34,825 bases of DNA, from assembly GCF_003236385.1 (NCBI RefSeq), contig NZ_POUA01000032.1:1-34825 (forward strand). The letters are read 5' to 3'. This DNA comes from Spongiactinospora gelatinilytica (GTDB taxonomy: Bacteria; Actinomycetota; Actinomycetes; Streptosporangiales; Streptosporangiaceae). Shown here piece after piece: positions 580 through 12,401 of this stretch. Each line of letters starts with the position of its first letter. Position 1 is the first letter of the stretch. Both the position numbers and the translations under genes were made by a program. Below the pieces are notes generated by a model. The model was not told the DNA's origin. It saw nothing but the letters and a program-made list of their open reading frames with translations, and did not search any database.

Positions 580-1692
580 GTGAGCGTGACCGGCGGAGGC
601 GAGTACGGGCCGGGGCGGCTCGCGGCGTTGCGCGGCCCCGTCGAGCCGATCGATCACAACGCCCGTACGATCGCCGCCCTCGCCGCCAACCCCGGCTGTG
701 ACCGACGGGCCGTGCTCGACGCGGCCGGTGTGGACAAGGGCCGGACCATCCGGCACCTCGGGCATCCGCCGCGCTTCGGCCTGTCGCCGTTCGCGATGTT
801 CCGCAACGAGCAGTTCAAGGCCATCGTCAAGGACGACGACGGCGCGCGCCTGGCCGGGCTGCTCCGCGAGGTGCTGCACCTGACCACCGCCGAGACCGCG
901 TACCAGACCACCGGCGAGGAGGCCGGCGCCTCACGCGAGGTACGGCACCGCCGTACCGCGGACCTGCTGCGCGACGCCGCCCAAGCGGGACGGGCCGCCA
1001 CCCTGCTCGACCGTCCGCTGCTCAAGCTCGCCGTCGCGGGCCATGACGTCTACCTGGAGCCCGACGTCATCGCCTTCCAGGCGGAAGGGCGCTTCCACAT
1101 AGTGGCGATCAAGGCGTTCGCGGTCATCGACGGCCAGGCCGAGACCGCGAAGGTCTCCGCCGCCGCCCGCGAGGCCGCCGTCTACGTACACGCCATGCGG
1201 GCCCTGTTCGCCGATCTCGGCCTCGACCCCGAGCGGGTGTCGCACGATGTCGTCCTGGTCTGCCCGAAGGACTTCGGCAACGTGCCGACGGCCACCCTGG
1301 TGGACGTACGCCACCAGCTCCTGGTCCTGGACCGGCAGCTCGGCCGGCTCAAGGGCGTCGATCGCATCCTGGCCGCCCTCCCCGCCGACCTGACCTTCGA
1401 CCTGGGCAGGCCCGCCGCCGAGGTGGCCGCCGCCCTGTCCGCGGTCGGGGCCCGGTACGCCCCCGAGTGCCTGGCGGCCTGCGAGATGGCCGCCTTCTGC
1501 CGGGCCGAGGCGCACGCCTGCGACTCCCTGGCGGCCCTGGGCCGTTCCGTGCGCGACGACTTCGGCGGGGTCGGTTCGGTCGCGGGCGCGATCGGCCTGG
1601 CGGAGGGCGCCGTGCTGCCCGAGGACGATCAGTCCGAGGTCGCCGAACGGCTCCGGCACATCCACAGGATCTATGACGAGGCGGTCGTATGA
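580..1692 (+). CDS. Cas4/AddB-like PD-(D/E)XK nuclease-fold protein with Fe-S cysteines
   Basis: This 370-aa protein has an early lone Cys (C40, in NPGCDRRAVLD) and a C-terminal cluster C297, C301, C307, C314 (ECLAACEMAAFC). That arrangement clamps a 4Fe-4S cluster in the Cas4, AddB and Dna2 nuclease families. Between them, EPD (160-162) followed by HIVAIK (173-178) matches the core PD...(D/E)xK topology, and REAAVYVHAM resembles the helix with the late motif. The residue expected to be acidic in (D/E)xK is Ala176, and FRNEQFK (74-80) replaces the usual G..FE signature, so the active site may be degenerate. The start is GTG 580 or 586, chosen for GGAGG at 571-575; the frame is open back to 499. 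The stop overlaps the next start (ATGA). Role inferred: DNA end processing or structural Fe-S partner of the helicase encoded two genes downstream. Family assignment is by motif reading only. Confidence 0.7.
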   Translation: MSVTGGGEYGPGRLAALRGPVEPIDHNARTIAALAANPGCDRRAVLDAAGVDKGRTIRHLGHPPRFGLSPFAMFRNEQFKAIVKDDDGARLAGLLREVLHLTTAETAYQTTGEEAGASREVRHRRTADLLRDAAQAGRAATLLDRPLLKLAVAGHDVYLEPDVIAFQAEGRFHIVAIKAFAVIDGQAETAKVSAAAREAAVYVHAMRALFADLGLDPERVSHDVVLVCPKDFGNVPTATLVDVRHQLLVLDRQLGRLKGVDRILAALPADLTFDLGRPAAEVAAALSAVGARYAPECLAACEMAAFCRAEAHACDSLAALGRSVRDDFGGVGSVAGAIGLAEGAVLPEDDQSEVAERLRHIHRIYDEAVV

Positions 1693-3128
1693 CCCTGTTC
1701 CGCTCCTATCTGAAGGCGCGGGCGCGGCATGAGGGCCGGGCGCGGCCCGCCGCCACCGTCCGGCACGTGCATCTGTCGGACGCGCCGATGGTGTTCGTCC
1801 CGCTGCGGATGGCCGGCGAGGCCGCCGCCCCGCTCGGCGCGATGGTCGGGTGCGATCCGGCCGAGCCGCGCCTGCTGGTCGTGCCCCAGCCGCGCGACCG
1901 CGATCTGCGGTTCGCCTTCGCCGCCGAGCTGGCCTCGGTCATGGTCCCCTACATCGAGCGGTACGCCGCCGACAGCGAGGAGGTCGAGGCCCGGACCCCG
2001 TACCCGAGGTGCCTGGACGCGCCGCAGATCATCGTGCCGAACCGAGGCGCGCTCGCGTTCGTCCGCCTGCTCGGCCGGTCCACCAGGTTCCGCCGCACGG
2101 ACGGGCCGCACGCCGTCGATCCGCTGGTGCCCGTACTCGGCCGCTGGCTCACCTACCTGCACGGACGCGGAGAGTACGCCGGGTCGGCGATGCTGCTGTC
2201 CCTGACCGACGCGCTGGCCGCCCACTGGGTCACCGGGCAGAGCGACGCCGAGGACACCGACCCGGCCGCGCTGCTCGGCTGGATCGACCCCCCGGCCGGG
2301 ATGACCGGCCCGGAGGCGGCGGCCGTGGCCGAGGACCCGCGGCGTTCGCCGCCGCCCGGCCCGGACACCGACCCCGACTTCGACCGGCGGGTGCTCCAGC
2401 CGTCGATCGCCGACTACGACGCCTCCGGGTCGGCCGACCGGGTGCGGGCCGCGCTGCACGACCAGCTCCGGCCCACCTGGGATCTGGTCTGGCGGGGCGT
2501 GGCGCTGCTGCGCACGCTGCCGGAGGCACCGAGCGCCGTGCTGCGCTGGGAGCGCGACCGCGCGTCGCTGGCCGGGGAGAACGCGCGGATCGCCGAGGGC
2601 GGCCTGTCGCAGGGCCGCTGGGACTCCGCGGTGGCCGCGGCCAGGCGGCTGGCCATGCTGGAGATCGCCCAGCAGACCTACGAGGCGGGCCGGGCGTTCG
2701 ACGATCCGCTGGTCATGGCCGAGTACCGCGCCGAGGGCGTGGCGTTCGCCGGCGAGGTCGTCGCCGTCGAGCCGGACCGCAAGATCATCCCGCCGGGCGG
2801 GAAGCGGCCGGTGGTCCGCCCGCTGGTGACCGTCAAGACGGCCGACCCACTGCGGCTGGCGCCCGGCAAGAAGGTGCTGTCCCCGTCGCGTCCCAGGCAG
2901 GCGGGCCAGATCCTCTCCGCCGAGGACGGCACGGTCGTCGTCCAGATCAACGGCGGCGTCAAGGACGGCGTGCCCGAGGTCGGGGAGACCGTCTGTTACG
3001 CCGACCTGGATCCGTCCGGGGGCCGCCGCCCGCCGCTGCCCGCGCTGGAGGAGACCCCGTGGACGCACGGCGGGCCGCCGCAGGAGTACGTCCCCACGGA
3101 CGAGGACGCCCAGGAGGCGTGGTCGTGA
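1689..3128 (+). CDS. Conserved-looking protein of unknown function between nuclease and helicase genes
   Basis: This 479-aa protein has no signal peptide or membrane segment. Its N-terminal two thirds are mixed alpha/beta with a Pro/Asp-rich linker at about 205-235. A helical segment (about 255-345) follows. Residues about 350-450 alternate hydrophobic and polar residues with GEVVAVEP, VRPLVTVKT and GTVVVQING, a beta-barrel-like pattern. In Upf1 and Dna2 helicases a beta-barrel (domain 1B) is inserted inside the motor, whereas the neighbouring 434-aa helicase seems too short to have one. This gene may supply it in trans; that is inference. It overlaps the upstream gene by ATGA and the downstream gene by GTGA, so the three products are probably made in fixed ratio. 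I do not recognise a named family. Confidence 0.75.
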   Translation: MTLFRSYLKARARHEGRARPAATVRHVHLSDAPMVFVPLRMAGEAAAPLGAMVGCDPAEPRLLVVPQPRDRDLRFAFAAELASVMVPYIERYAADSEEVEARTPYPRCLDAPQIIVPNRGALAFVRLLGRSTRFRRTDGPHAVDPLVPVLGRWLTYLHGRGEYAGSAMLLSLTDALAAHWVTGQSDAEDTDPAALLGWIDPPAGMTGPEAAAVAEDPRRSPPPGPDTDPDFDRRVLQPSIADYDASGSADRVRAALHDQLRPTWDLVWRGVALLRTLPEAPSAVLRWERDRASLAGENARIAEGGLSQGRWDSAVAAARRLAMLEIAQQTYEAGRAFDDPLVMAEYRAEGVAFAGEVVAVEPDRKIIPPGGKRPVVRPLVTVKTADPLRLAPGKKVLSPSRPRQAGQILSAEDGTVVVQINGGVKDGVPEVGETVCYADLDPSGGRRPPLPALEETPWTHGGPPQEYVPTDEDAQEAWS

Positions 3129-4429
3129 CCTCCGCGAAAGCCGCCGCTCAGGCCGTCACGGACGCGATCCTGGACGACTATACCGGCGGTGCCCACCGGG
3201 GCGTCGTCGTCGACTCCCCGCCGGGCGCGGGCAAGACGACGCTGGTCGTGGCCACGGCCATGCGGCTCGCCGCCGCCGACGAGCGTCTGATGATCGTCGC
3301 GCAGACCAACGAGCAGGTGGACGACCTGGTGGACAAGCTGGCGACCAGGTCGCCCGGCCTGACCATCGGACGCCTGCACGCCGAGGGCTTCGAGCCGCCG
3401 GAGCGCGTCCTGCGCCACTCCGCCGTCGTGCCGGACAACAAGATCGACAAGGTCGAGGGCTGCCAGGTCGTGGTGGCCACCGCCGACAAGTGGGCGTACG
3501 TGTCCGGCCGGTCCTGGCGGTGGGCGATCGTGGACGAGGCCTACCAGATGCGCTCGGACAAGCTGCTCGCCGTCGCGCCGCTGTTCGCGGACGGGCACAC
3601 GTTGTTCGTGGGCGATCCGGGGCAGCTCGACCCGTTCTCGGTGGTCGAGAGCGAGCGCTGGAGCGGCCTGGCCTGGGATCCCATGCAGAGCGCGGTGGCG
3701 GTCACTCAGCGGATCAACGGCCTGCCGGTGCATCGGCTGCCGGTGTCGTGGCGGCTGCCCGGTTCGGCGGCCCCGGTCGTGGCGCGCGCCTTCTACCCGG
3801 CCGCGGGTTTCGCGGCGGGCACCGCGCCGGGGGAGCGGCGGCTTTCGCCCGCGGTGTCCGGCGGGACTCGCGGTCCGTGGGACGCCACCGTCGAGGAGGC
3901 CGCCGCGTACGGCTGGGCGCTGCACGAACTCCCCGCCCGCCACACCGTGCGCACCGATCCCGAGGTGGCCGCGGCGTGCGCCGGGATCGCCGCCCGGCTG
4001 CTCGAACGCGGTGTGACGGCCCACGACGAGCACGGCTCCCACGCGGTCACCGCGGCCCGCATCGCGATCGGCTGTGCGCACAACGACCAGGTGGCGGCGG
4101 TGCGCGCGGCGGGCGTACCGGAGGGCGTGACCGTGGACACGGCCAACCGGCTCCAGGGCCGGGAGTACGACGTCACGATCGTCTGGCACCCGCTGTCCGG
4201 GCGGCGCGACGCGACCGCGTTCCACCTGGAGTCGGGGCGGCTGTGCGTGCTGACCTCGCGGCACCGGCACGCCTGCGTGGTCGTGGCCAGGGCGGGCATC
4301 GCCGAGCTGCTGGACGAGCACCCGTCCAGCCCGCAGGTGCGGCTCAACGTACCGATCAAGTTCCCGGACGGCTGGGCGGCGAACCAGGCCGTCCTGGCTC
4401 ACCTGGCCGGGCACCGGGTGCCCGCCTAA
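3125..4429 (+). CDS. SF1 (Upf1/Dna2-like) DNA/RNA helicase, compact
   Basis: Superfamily 1 helicase of 434 aa. Walker A is SPPGAGKTT (31-39), Walker B is AIVDEAY (134-140), motif III is GDPGQLDPF (163-171) and motif IV is LPVSWRLP (205-212). Motif V is TANRLQGREYDV (339-350) and motif VI is VLTSRHRHA (375-383). Motif order and the LQGREYD signature are those of the AAA_11/AAA_12 (Upf1, IGHMBP2, Dna2) group. The protein is short for that group, with little room for the 1B barrel or accessory domains. The start at 3125 (GTGA overlap with the previous stop) has GGAGG at 3113-3117 with seven-base spacing; GTG 3119 is the alternative. It ends the operon. With the Cas4-like protein it recapitulates the nuclease plus helicase architecture of eukaryotic Dna2. 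ATPase activity is likely; substrate and role (repair or phage defence) are unknown. Confidence 0.85.
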   Translation: MTSAKAAAQAVTDAILDDYTGGAHRGVVVDSPPGAGKTTLVVATAMRLAAADERLMIVAQTNEQVDDLVDKLATRSPGLTIGRLHAEGFEPPERVLRHSAVVPDNKIDKVEGCQVVVATADKWAYVSGRSWRWAIVDEAYQMRSDKLLAVAPLFADGHTLFVGDPGQLDPFSVVESERWSGLAWDPMQSAVAVTQRINGLPVHRLPVSWRLPGSAAPVVARAFYPAAGFAAGTAPGERRLSPAVSGGTRGPWDATVEEAAAYGWALHELPARHTVRTDPEVAAACAGIAARLLERGVTAHDEHGSHAVTAARIAIGCAHNDQVAAVRAAGVPEGVTVDTANRLQGREYDVTIVWHPLSGRRDATAFHLESGRLCVLTSRHRHACVVVARAGIAELLDEHPSSPQVRLNVPIKFPDGWAANQAVLAHLAGHRVPA

Positions 4430-10219: not shown

Positions 10220-10540
10220 CGCTTTCTGTGCGCATGACTTTCCCGGCGAAGCGTAATCGCCCGGTGCCGGGGTCTCAATCACATAAAAACGGGCGCGTTG
10301 GGCGGCGATTTCACGGGGACACGGGAGAGCGGCCGACGGCCCCGGGCTCCGCCGGGCCAAGGGGCGGGCGAACATCAAGGCGGCGAGCGGGGCCCACCGG
10401 GTTCGGCACACCGTTCATGCACGGTGTGGCGAGTCCTGTGTGACCGCTCTTGTCAAATGCCTGACCAGAGGCTGTGGAAGAACTTCGACGTGCCGGAGTG
10501 CCGCTCGCGGCCGGTACGGCTGCCGCGTTAGGGTGATCGT
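10220..10540. other. Intergenic region between metalloprotease gene and tRNA-Sec
   Basis: These 321 bases have no supported gene. A perfect inverted repeat, CACACCGT (10407-10414) and ACGGTGTG (10421-10428) around TCATGC, is the only clear element. It could be an operator or the end of an upstream transcript. The A/T-richer bases at about 10273-10290 (TCAATCACATAAAAACG) may be part of the minus-strand promoter. TTGTCA at 10449-10454 is a possible -35 element toward the tRNA, with no clear -10. Confidence 0.35.
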
Positions 10541-10636
10541 GGAGGCGCGTGGGTTCCTGGTGGTCCTCCTGGCCTTCAAAGCCATGGGGCGGCGCTCCGC
10601 GTCGCCGGCGGGTTCGATTCCCGTTCGCCTCCGCCA
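10541..10636 (+). tRNA. selC: tRNA-Sec (UCA anticodon)
   Basis: A 96-base tRNA with the features of bacterial selenocysteine tRNA: acceptor GGAGGCG (10541-10547) paired with CGCCTCC (10626-10632), discriminator G and encoded CCA (10634-10636). The anticodon loop CTTCAAA carries TCA. A long variable arm (about GGGCGGCG...CGTCGCC) and a T-arm with GGTTCGATTCC complete it. UCA reads UGA. It lies 25 bases before selB, whose product carries this tRNA to the ribosome, and is likely co-transcribed with it. The eighth acceptor pair (C/T) and one pair in the extended anticodon stem look mismatched. Confidence 0.95.
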
Positions 10637-10661
10637 CCGAGGGGCGGGAGGGCGGTACATC

Positions 10662-12401
10662 ATGCAGGTGATCGCGACCGCTGGTCATGTGGATCATGGG
10701 AAGTCGACGCTCGTGCGGGCGCTGACCGGGATGGAACCGGACCGGTGGGCCGAGGAGCGCCGCCGGGGGATGACCATCGACCTCGGGTTCGCCTGGACCA
10801 CCCTGGCCTCCGGCCGGCGGGTCGCCTTCGTGGACGTGCCGGGGCACGCCAGGTTCGTCACCAACATGCTGGCCGGGCTGGGGCCGGTGCCCGCGGTGAT
10901 GTTCGTGCTCGCGGCCGACCAGGGCTGGCAGGCCCAGTCCCAGGAGCACTGGGAGGCGATCCGCGCGCTCGGCGTGGAGCACGGGCTGCTGGTGGTCACC
11001 CGGTGCGATCTGAGGGAGCCGGGGCCCGCCCTGGCCGAGGCCCGCGAGCACATCGGATGGCCCGTGGTCACGGTGAGCGGGAGTACCGGGCAAGGGCTCG
11101 GCCTGCTGCGGGCGGCGCTCGACCGGCTGACCGGCGCGCTGCCCGCGCCCGACGCCGCCGCGCCGGTACGGCTGTGGATCGACCGGGCGTTCACCATCAA
11201 GGGCGCGGGGACGGTCGTCACGGGCACGCTGCCGGCGGGCACGCTGCGGGCGGGCGACCGGCTCCTGCTCGCGGGCGAGCCGGTGCGGGTCAGGGGGTTG
11301 CAGGCGCTGGGGGAGCCGTCGCCGCAGGTCACGGCGACCGCCCGCGTCGCGGTCAACCTGCGCGGCGTAGGTCGGGACCAGGCGGCCAGAGGCATGACAC
11401 TGCTCACCCCCGACGCCTGGCTCCCGACCGACACCACGGACGTACGCCTGGACACCGCCGGACCAACGGCCGCGGATCAGGAGCGGGTGTGGCGGGAGGC
11501 GATGTTGCACATCGGGTCGGCGTCGGTGGCGGTGCGGGTGCGGCCGTTGGGGGCCGGGACGGCGCGGCTGACGCTGGCGCGGCCGTTGCCGCTGCGGATC
11601 GGGGACCGGGCGCTGCTGCGCGGTTCGGGCCGCCCGATCGTCGGGGTACGGGTCCTCGACGTACGCCCGGCGCCGCTCCGCCGTACCGGCGCGGCCCGGA
11701 CCAGAGCCGCCGAACTCGCCGCCTTCGCCGCCCCCGGCGACCCCGTGCCCGACGCCGCCACCGTGCTGCGCTGGCGCGGCATGGCACAACGAGCCGAACT
11801 GGTCGCGATGGGCTGCGACCCCGCCGCCCTCGCCGCGCCGGCTGCGGACGGCTGGCTGGTCGATCCCGGGACCTGGGCGGAGCTGTCCGACCGGCTCGCG
11901 GCGCTGGCCGCCGCCCAGCCGGGCATCCCCGTGGACGCCGCCCGCACCGCGCTCGCCCTCCCCACGCGCGGGCTGGTCGAGGCGCTGGCCGGGTCGCGCC
12001 CGCCGCTGAGCGTCGCGGACGGCCGGATCGACGCGGCCGGCGGCCTGCCGGAGCCGGTGCTGGCGGCGGTCGGACGGCTGCGCGCCGAGCTGGCCGCCGC
12101 GCCGTACCGGGCCCCCGAGGCCGCCCGGCTGACCGAACTGGGGCTCACCGCCCGCGTGGTGGGCGCGGCGGCGCGGGCCGGGCTGCTGCTGCGCCTGGCC
12201 GGCGGGGTGGTCCTACCGGCGGGCGCGGACACGGCGGCGGCGCGGCGGCTGGCCGAGCTGGGCCGGCCGTTCACCGCGGCGGACGCCCGTACCGCGCTCG
12301 GCACCACCCGCCGCGTGGTGATCCCGCTGCTGGAACACCTCGACGCGCGCGGCCTCACCCGCCGCCTGGACGACCGGCTGCGCGTGGTCGCGGCCCCTTG
12401 A
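10662..12401 (+). CDS. selB: Selenocysteine-specific elongation factor SelB
   Basis: This 579-aa GTPase delivers Sec-tRNA to UGA codons marked by a SECIS element. It has G1 GHVDHGKST (8-16), the G2 region RRGMTIDLGFAW, G3 DVPGHARF and a G4-like TRCDL (usually N/TKxDL). The EF-Tu-like domains continue with IKGAGTVVTGTLPAG (residues about 180-194). The C-terminal about 250 residues are Ala/Leu/Arg-rich winged helices typical of SelB for SECIS binding. The ATG at 10662 has GGGAGGG a few bases before it; the frame is open upstream only because it runs through the tRNA gene. selA and selD are not in the window. The gene ends nine bases from the stop of the convergent hpaE gene, with no terminator visible. 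Confidence 0.95.
   Translation: MQVIATAGHVDHGKSTLVRALTGMEPDRWAEERRRGMTIDLGFAWTTLASGRRVAFVDVPGHARFVTNMLAGLGPVPAVMFVLAADQGWQAQSQEHWEAIRALGVEHGLLVVTRCDLREPGPALAEAREHIGWPVVTVSGSTGQGLGLLRAALDRLTGALPAPDAAAPVRLWIDRAFTIKGAGTVVTGTLPAGTLRAGDRLLLAGEPVRVRGLQALGEPSPQVTATARVAVNLRGVGRDQAARGMTLLTPDAWLPTDTTDVRLDTAGPTAADQERVWREAMLHIGSASVAVRVRPLGAGTARLTLARPLPLRIGDRALLRGSGRPIVGVRVLDVRPAPLRRTGAARTRAAELAAFAAPGDPVPDAATVLRWRGMAQRAELVAMGCDPAALAAPAADGWLVDPGTWAELSDRLAALAAAQPGIPVDAARTALALPTRGLVEALAGSRPPLSVADGRIDAAGGLPEPVLAAVGRLRAELAAAPYRAPEAARLTELGLTARVVGAAARAGLLLRLAGGVVLPAGADTAAARRLAELGRPFTAADARTALGTTRRVVIPLLEHLDARGLTRRLDDRLRVVAAP

Follow-up and report, generated by a model that had tools for sequence, protein, structure and literature searches.

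A conserved actinomycete operon likely to encode a DNA2/Bad-type helicase-nuclease in three subunits

Introduction

The operon described here consists of three overlapping genes, P1, P2 and P3, and likely encodes a DNA2/Bad-type 5'-3' helicase-nuclease that is split into three subunits. It lies within a stretch of DNA of 34,825 nucleotides, referred to below as the window. Formation of the complex, its activity and any phenotype are inferred. The original prediction, made from the sequence alone, recognized no named defence or repair system of this exact composition, and no published description of a P1-P2-P3 operon was found in the open-access literature searched. As far as that literature shows, the operon is uncharacterised.

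Organization and conservation of the operon

All three genes are read from the forward strand. P1 (580-1692, 370 amino acids), a predicted nuclease-fold protein of the Cas4/AddB/Dna2 (iron-staple-like) type, starts with GTG and has the sequence GGAGG just upstream at 571-575. P2 (1689-3128, 479 amino acids) is modeled by AlphaFold2 (AF2) as an RNase-H/DnaQ-like, apparently catalytically blank N-terminal domain followed by a stalk and barrel. P3 (3125-4429, 434 amino acids) is an SF1B Upf1/Dna2-type RecA1-RecA2 motor whose GTG start falls within the P2 stop. The P1/P2 overlap is ATGA (1689-1692) and the P2/P3 overlap is GTGA (3125-3128). The genome that contains the window has a single copy of the operon.

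Relatives were gathered from GTDB contigs and whole genomes. P2 and P3 are present in an identical set of 29 of the 198 genomes of the class (E <= 1e-40), and P1 occurs in the same 29 plus one further genome with only a 66-residue partial match. Of 65 loci of at least 9 kb, 62 have the three genes contiguous, in the same order and on the same strand; of the remaining three, L093 is a locus truncated by the extraction coordinates. In two genomes of one genus, P3 is found 37-50 kb downstream of P1-P2 on the same strand (G095:C1:3131940 and 3169165; G197:C4:1331213 and 1381204), a separation that we read as the mark of a large insertion in the operon or of a rearrangement. Chance adjacency of functionally unrelated genes is all but excluded: only the detachment of P3 in these two genomes speaks for it, while the occurrence of all three in the same 29 of 198 genomes and the conserved adjacency speak against it. 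P1-P2-P3 is a conserved three-gene unit. The original prediction of three open reading frames with these lengths, strand and overlaps has held. One finding that would have refuted its split-Dna2 reading, homologues that are never neighbours elsewhere, did not materialize: they nearly always are.

More distant versions exist in other families of the phylum. In G349 (locus L078) each of three genes overlaps the next, with matches of 8.7e-24 for P1, 7.4e-9 for P2 and 1.3e-61 for P3, and its P2 is recognised by profile. In G428, from a second distant family, P1 and P3 occur together and a P2 is readable by eye. A protein with an RNase_H_2 and a weak PDDEXK_1 match (L079:4059-5753) overlaps the end of the distant P3 in G428, where it could possibly be a fourth subunit. 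A phage origin of the operon was discarded, there being no P1 matches in phage or viral collections.

P3 is an SF1B motor

P3 matches AAA_11 (3.5e-12), AAA_30 and AAA_12 in Pfam, and its best profile matches in the PDB are SMUBP-2 (2.1e-9) and DNA2 (2.7e-9). The helicase motifs are invariant among homologues, namely motif I or Walker A (PPGAGKT, 3218-3238, with residues 32-37 invariant), motif II (DEAYQ, 3533-3547), motif III (GDPGQLDP, 3611-3634) and motif VI (SRHR, 4256-4267). P3 is an intact motor of the Upf1/Dna2 class. When compared by hhalign with the motor of single-chain actinobacterial proteins that fuse a TM0106 RecB-like nuclease to an AAA_11/AAA_12-type helicase, it aligns over 361 columns with a probability of 100 and an E-value of 2e-69. 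P3 begins near its Walker A, so it is without the stalk and barrel of its relatives, both of which P2 appears to carry.

P2 is modeled as a blank RNase-H-like domain with a stalk and barrel

The AF2 model of P2 (pLDDT 86.8, pTM 0.84) falls into two parts. Residues 31-332 (1779-2684) match the exonuclease region of a poxvirus family-B polymerase over 184 residues with a Z of 9.9, indicating an RNase-H-like fold. In an alignment read without gaps, the catalytic D and E of the polymerase fall on V37 and L39 of P2, and there is no conserved acidic pair at these positions. The domain therefore looks catalytically blank, an inference that rests on one fold match.

The second part, residues 314-438 (2628-3002), is modeled as stalk helices and a beta-barrel corresponding to those of Dna2 and IGHMBP2, with beta strands at 352-438. 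The top Foldseek match of P2 is Dna2 (5ean) at an E of 0.016, and none reaches 0.001. Residues 310-441 superpose on IGHMBP2, Sen1 and SETX with Z of 7.5-8.3, the barrel of IGHMBP2 giving an rmsd of 2.1 over 86 residues and a Z of 8.3, although riboflavin-synthase-like and F1-ATPase barrels score alike. The model strongly suggests a barrel and stalk. C-terminal to the barrel is the invariant sequence TPWTHGGPP (residues 456-464, 3054-3080).

P1 has the predicted fold and the conserved cysteines of an Fe-S nuclease

The AlphaFold2 model of P1 (pLDDT 83.6) is closest to Cas4 (7mi4) by VIA-align, with a Z of 10.3 over 196 residues and an rmsd of 4.4, followed by EXO5 (Z 9.1). Other best solved relatives are RecB, lambda exonuclease, AdnA and AddB. 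By Foldseek alone the best E is 0.002, short of 0.001. A PD-(D/E)XK core of the Cas4/EXO5/RecB type is strongly suggested on the strength of the model. Four cysteines are invariant among 82 P1 homologues: C40 (697-699), and C297, C301 and C307 in a C-x3-C-x5-C arrangement (1468-1500), giving the overall layout C..Cx3Cx5C. This four-cysteine pattern is shown; the Fe-S cluster itself is predicted from it. C314 was ruled out as a ligand, being a cysteine in just 9 of 57 P1 sequences.

Neither P1 nor P2 has a family match in Pfam, NCBIfam, PADLOC or PHROGs; the Cas4 family PF01930 gave no match in any of 28 members at E up to 10; and the curated TM0106/TIGR03491 profile matched none of P1, P2 and P3. 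The best Pfam results for members of P1 and P2, PDDEXK_1 at 0.011 and NERD at 0.076, were below cut-off, and RNase_H_2 was not established. PDB profile matches of A1 to designed repeat proteins covered about 30 residues and were dismissed.

Taken protein by protein, the original prediction fared well. The Cas4-like Fe-S nuclease-fold protein held as a model fold with C40, C297, C301 and C307 and failed for C314; with a PD-(D/E)XK core predicted and the Fe-S cysteines invariant, structure prediction did not bring the refutation that absence of either would have been. The beta-rich C-terminus of the 479-residue protein is borne out by the strands of the model. The top Foldseek match of this protein to Dna2 and the superposition of its barrel on that of IGHMBP2 support the split-Dna2 reading. 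The 434-residue Upf1/Dna2-type helicase is confirmed by Pfam, PDB profiles and hhalign.

An altered active site in the window lineage

The canonical D...ExK...QxxxY of DNA2 is present in most P1 homologues and altered in the window. Its PD-(D/E)XK motif runs from D162 to A176-I177-K178 (1063-1113), with the ExK glutamate replaced by alanine, and its QxxxY motif reads E198-x3-Y202 (1171-1185). Position 176 is glutamate in 71 of 82 sequences, alanine in the window and five relatives (Spongiactinospora and Acrocarpospora, all six genomes of the clade), and leucine, together with K178R, in four second copies from Streptomyces. D162 and Y202 are invariant in the alignment, K178 is kept in the window clade, and E176A is paired with Q198E in every case from that clade. 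P1 there has dN/dS of 0.31-0.56 against 0.12-0.27 for P3, and is still under purifying selection.

Migration of a metal-ligand glutamate is known from restriction enzymes of the Cfr10I/NgoMIV type. Alternatively, P1 of the window lineage may be nuclease-dead, in which case the complex would be a DNA-binding motor (a translocase or remodeller) with P1 as its Fe-S scaffold. The RecC subunit of RecBCD, an inactive relative, is a precedent for such a scaffold. In favor of a dead nuclease are the fact that all six genomes of the clade carry E176A, the continued purifying selection on P1 (dN/dS 0.31-0.56), and the separate loss of ExK in a second clade (E176L, K178R), next door to which lies a separate PD-(D/E)XK protein that is intact by inspection. 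Against it, Q198E accompanies E176A every time, as expected of a migrated ligand, and D162, K178 and Y202 are retained. On balance we lean slightly away from the dead nuclease; sequence cannot tell it from glutamate migration (E176A to Q198E), and activity in the window clade remains uncertain.

Comparison with known systems

Bad is a bacterial DNA2-like helicase-nuclease of Geobacillus, with a second class in mycobacteria and Rhodococcus (PMC7430649). Bad-type enzymes are single chains with the order nuclease, central domain and motor; they have been called rare and sporadic, and the central domain is without a known fold or role (PMC7430649). Like P1-P2-P3, Bad comprises an SF1B motor, a RecB-family nuclease with four spanning cysteines and, between them, a central domain whose fold is unknown. 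Its authors saw in a methyltransferase beside Bad in Geobacillus an indication that a new restriction enzyme might be involved (PMC7430649), and this type III-like neighbour is echoed at the distant homologue in G349. Whereas Bad is one polypeptide, P1-P2-P3 is three genes, is core in Streptomyces and has a stand-alone central/barrel protein.

Eukaryotic DNA2 runs from nuclease through stalk/beta-barrel to motor (PMC4716839). It shares with the operon a motor related by sequence (E 2.7e-9) and, as predicted for P1, an Fe-S nuclease whose four cysteines span the domain as an iron staple; the order of parts would also agree if the modeled stalk and barrel of P2 correspond to those of DNA2. Unlike the operon, it is a single chain, has no RNase-H-like domain and retains an active ExK, which is altered in the P1 of the window. 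The TM0106/helicase fusions (L146-L155) also follow the order nuclease, middle, motor; they differ in being single chains of about 1,130 amino acids whose nuclease and middle parts have no detectable profile homology to P1 and P2. Direct homology of this kind was rejected, since profile comparison gave no significant match (E about 0.009 and a probability of 4.5 for P1, nothing for P2). No TM0106/helicase protein was found in the genome of the window.

Cas4 is the closest solved fold to P1 (Z 10.3) and likewise has one cysteine before and three after the nuclease core. In contrast to Cas4, P1 shows no linkage to cas1 or cas2 and no Pfam Cas4 match, has Cx3C rather than CxxC, and is partnered by a helicase. 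AddAB and AdnAB also pair a RecB-family nuclease (with Fe-S in AddB) with an SF1 motor for end resection, but their motors are SF1A UvrD-type within large chains, whereas P3 is a small separate SF1B Upf1-type protein. In PADLOC 2023, no model of a known anti-phage system was satisfied by all components, and P3 received partial helicase matches only. Two features keep the operon from strict membership in DNA2/Bad, namely its division into three genes and, in the window, the absence of the canonical ExK; by homology, we infer that it resembles DNA2/Bad in its working.

Genomic context of core and second copies

The contig ends upstream of the window operon. Neighbours in the window include genes for WD40, lectin, SelB, aldehyde dehydrogenase, LigB and ABC transporter proteins; none of the nine checked is a defence gene, and all of them belong to metabolism, transport or translation or to the lectin/WD40 group. 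Just after P3, 4675-5166 gives only a partial FAD_binding_3 match and is apparently the remnant of a decayed monooxygenase. Farther along, 10440-12401 holds a tRNA-Sec gene (10541-10636) followed by selB, whose listed start overlaps the tRNA, so that the true start lies downstream.

P1 is found in 141 of 150 Streptomyces species. The core copies form one clade in a FastTree phylogeny, the deep branches of which are unsure, and lie near genes, named by eye, for a histidine phosphatase, a spermidine-synthase-like protein, an XRE/TPR regulator and a GGDEF/EAL protein. In appearance they are stable chromosomal genes and not island genes.

Second copies have a different setting. Directly upstream of P1 they carry P0, a protein of 281 amino acids with no known family (for example L097:10721-11566). 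About 25 loci have P0, Nonomuraea included, as do several relatives of the window's family. P0 was not found near the window or in its genome and is also absent from core Streptomyces copies; on these grounds it was rejected as an obligatory part. In twelve second-copy loci sbcD is divergent from P0, in most with sbcC behind it. The sbcD-sbcC (Mre11-Rad50) loci are L097:6093-15610, L094, L098-L102 and L106-L110, from Streptomyces second copies and plasmids, with Pfam confirmation in L097.

Defence genes adjoin several second copies. A pPIWI-RE island (PprPDDEXK, PprDinG with RE_Z, and pPIWI-RE) lies beside four of them, identified in L092 (9017-19901) and, through clustering, in L103-L105. These four are exactly the copies whose P1 lost ExK (E176L, K178R), likely in one event. 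Wadjet jet genes follow P3 directly on the same strand in L097:15764-22426, L098:7362-14021 and L108:13585-18997, with jetD falling outside the extent of L108. Type I-E cas3-cas8e follow the copy in L039, and restriction-like helicases stand beside L094 and L099. In the distant G349, genes for a type III-like methyltransferase and for UvrD-PDDEXK are close by.

The operon could possibly be a true defence system against phages or plasmids. In support are the pPIWI-RE, Wadjet and type I-E CRISPR neighbours of second copies, the restriction-like helicases and the type III methyltransferase of G349. Against this are the core copy amid ordinary genes in 141 of 150 Streptomyces species, the lack of any defence gene among the nine window neighbours checked, and the absence of a PADLOC model for P1 or P2. 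A defence role may be confined to second copies. The proximity to defence islands that the original prediction proposed to survey is true of several second copies; core copies and the window lie among ordinary genes.

A role in RNA metabolism, with P3 acting on RNA or R-loops as a Upf1/Senataxin-type helicase and P1-P2 as its RNA-processing partner, is very unlikely. Upf1, SMUBP-2 and Senataxin do belong to the same subfamily, but the context of second copies is one of DNA defence and SbcCD. RecB-family Fe-S nucleases are also known to act on DNA.

Some second copies are near chromosome ends. In the complete chromosomes of G603 (C1:22958 and 10653053) and G677 (C1:23153 and 8508295) the second copy is mirrored about 23 kb from both ends, within terminal inverted repeats, and another is carried by a linear plasmid, 12 kb from its end. 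A telomere-specific role is not claimed, as some second copies are internal, such as that in G564, and Wadjet and Lamassu also cluster at chromosome ends (PMC10482375).

Proposed mechanism and its standing

In the split DNA2/Bad reading, both RecA-like motor domains would come from P3. The stalk and beta-barrel, which immediately precede the motor in the single chains of Dna2 and IGHMBP2, would come from P2, together with its blank RNase-H-like domain. P1 would be a RecB-family nuclease with an Fe-S staple, placed at the distal end of a strand tunnel. Translational coupling through ATGA and GTGA may ensure that the parts are made together. Driven by ATP, P3 would draw a single strand off a DNA end and pass it to P1, which would cut it, and the outcome would be resection or destruction of DNA ends. 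In the window lineage, cleavage would depend on a glutamate that has shifted out of the ExK strand (E176A) and into the QxxxY helix (Q198E); failing that, only the motor would operate. Assembly, polarity, threading and cleavage are steps inferred from homology.

Dna2 and Bad have the order nuclease, stalk/barrel or central domain, and motor; the operon appears cut at these domain borders, and the place of P2 between P1 and P3 is that of the barrel and stalk in Dna2. The reading is also favored by the one group of second copies that is divergent from sbcD-sbcC, the Mre11-Rad50 of bacteria. Several points count against a split Dna2: the weak Foldseek E for P1 and P2, the equal scores of other barrels, the lack of a significant profile link from P1 and P2 to single-chain relatives, the altered ExK in the window clade and one Streptomyces clade, and the detached P3 in two genomes of one genus. 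The initial idea of Dna2 in three pieces is supported with amendments, namely the extra N-terminal domain of P2 that eukaryotic Dna2 lacks, the prior knowledge of single-chain bacterial Dna2-like enzymes (Bad; PMC7430649), and the altered nuclease motif of the window lineage. Its suggested roles in end processing, stalled-fork repair or phage defence remain inference. For the biochemistry we favor a role in resecting or destroying DNA ends, itself inferred; with less certainty, repair is the likelier use in core copies, and defence, through degradation of foreign or broken DNA, in second copies.

A bolder reading, offered only as a possibility, is an actinomycete Mre11-Rad50-plus-Dna2 module in which SbcCD stands beside a split Fe-S Dna2-like nuclease-motor and P0. 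The module would be carried on a linear plasmid, in repeats at chromosome ends and in defence islands, and Streptomyces would retain P1-P2-P3 as a core machine. In the window lineage, the nuclease carboxylate would have left the ExK strand for the QxxxY helix.

Significance

The near-universal presence of the split form in Streptomyces makes its role genetically testable in tractable strains. With P2, what may be the Bad-type central domain can be studied as a protein of its own, for which the model is confident, and the E176A/Q198E pair offers a natural experiment in the movement or death of nuclease active sites. The sbcCD-linked clade may represent a bacterial parallel to eukaryotic end resection by Mre11-Rad50 and Dna2, in organisms with protein-capped linear chromosomes.
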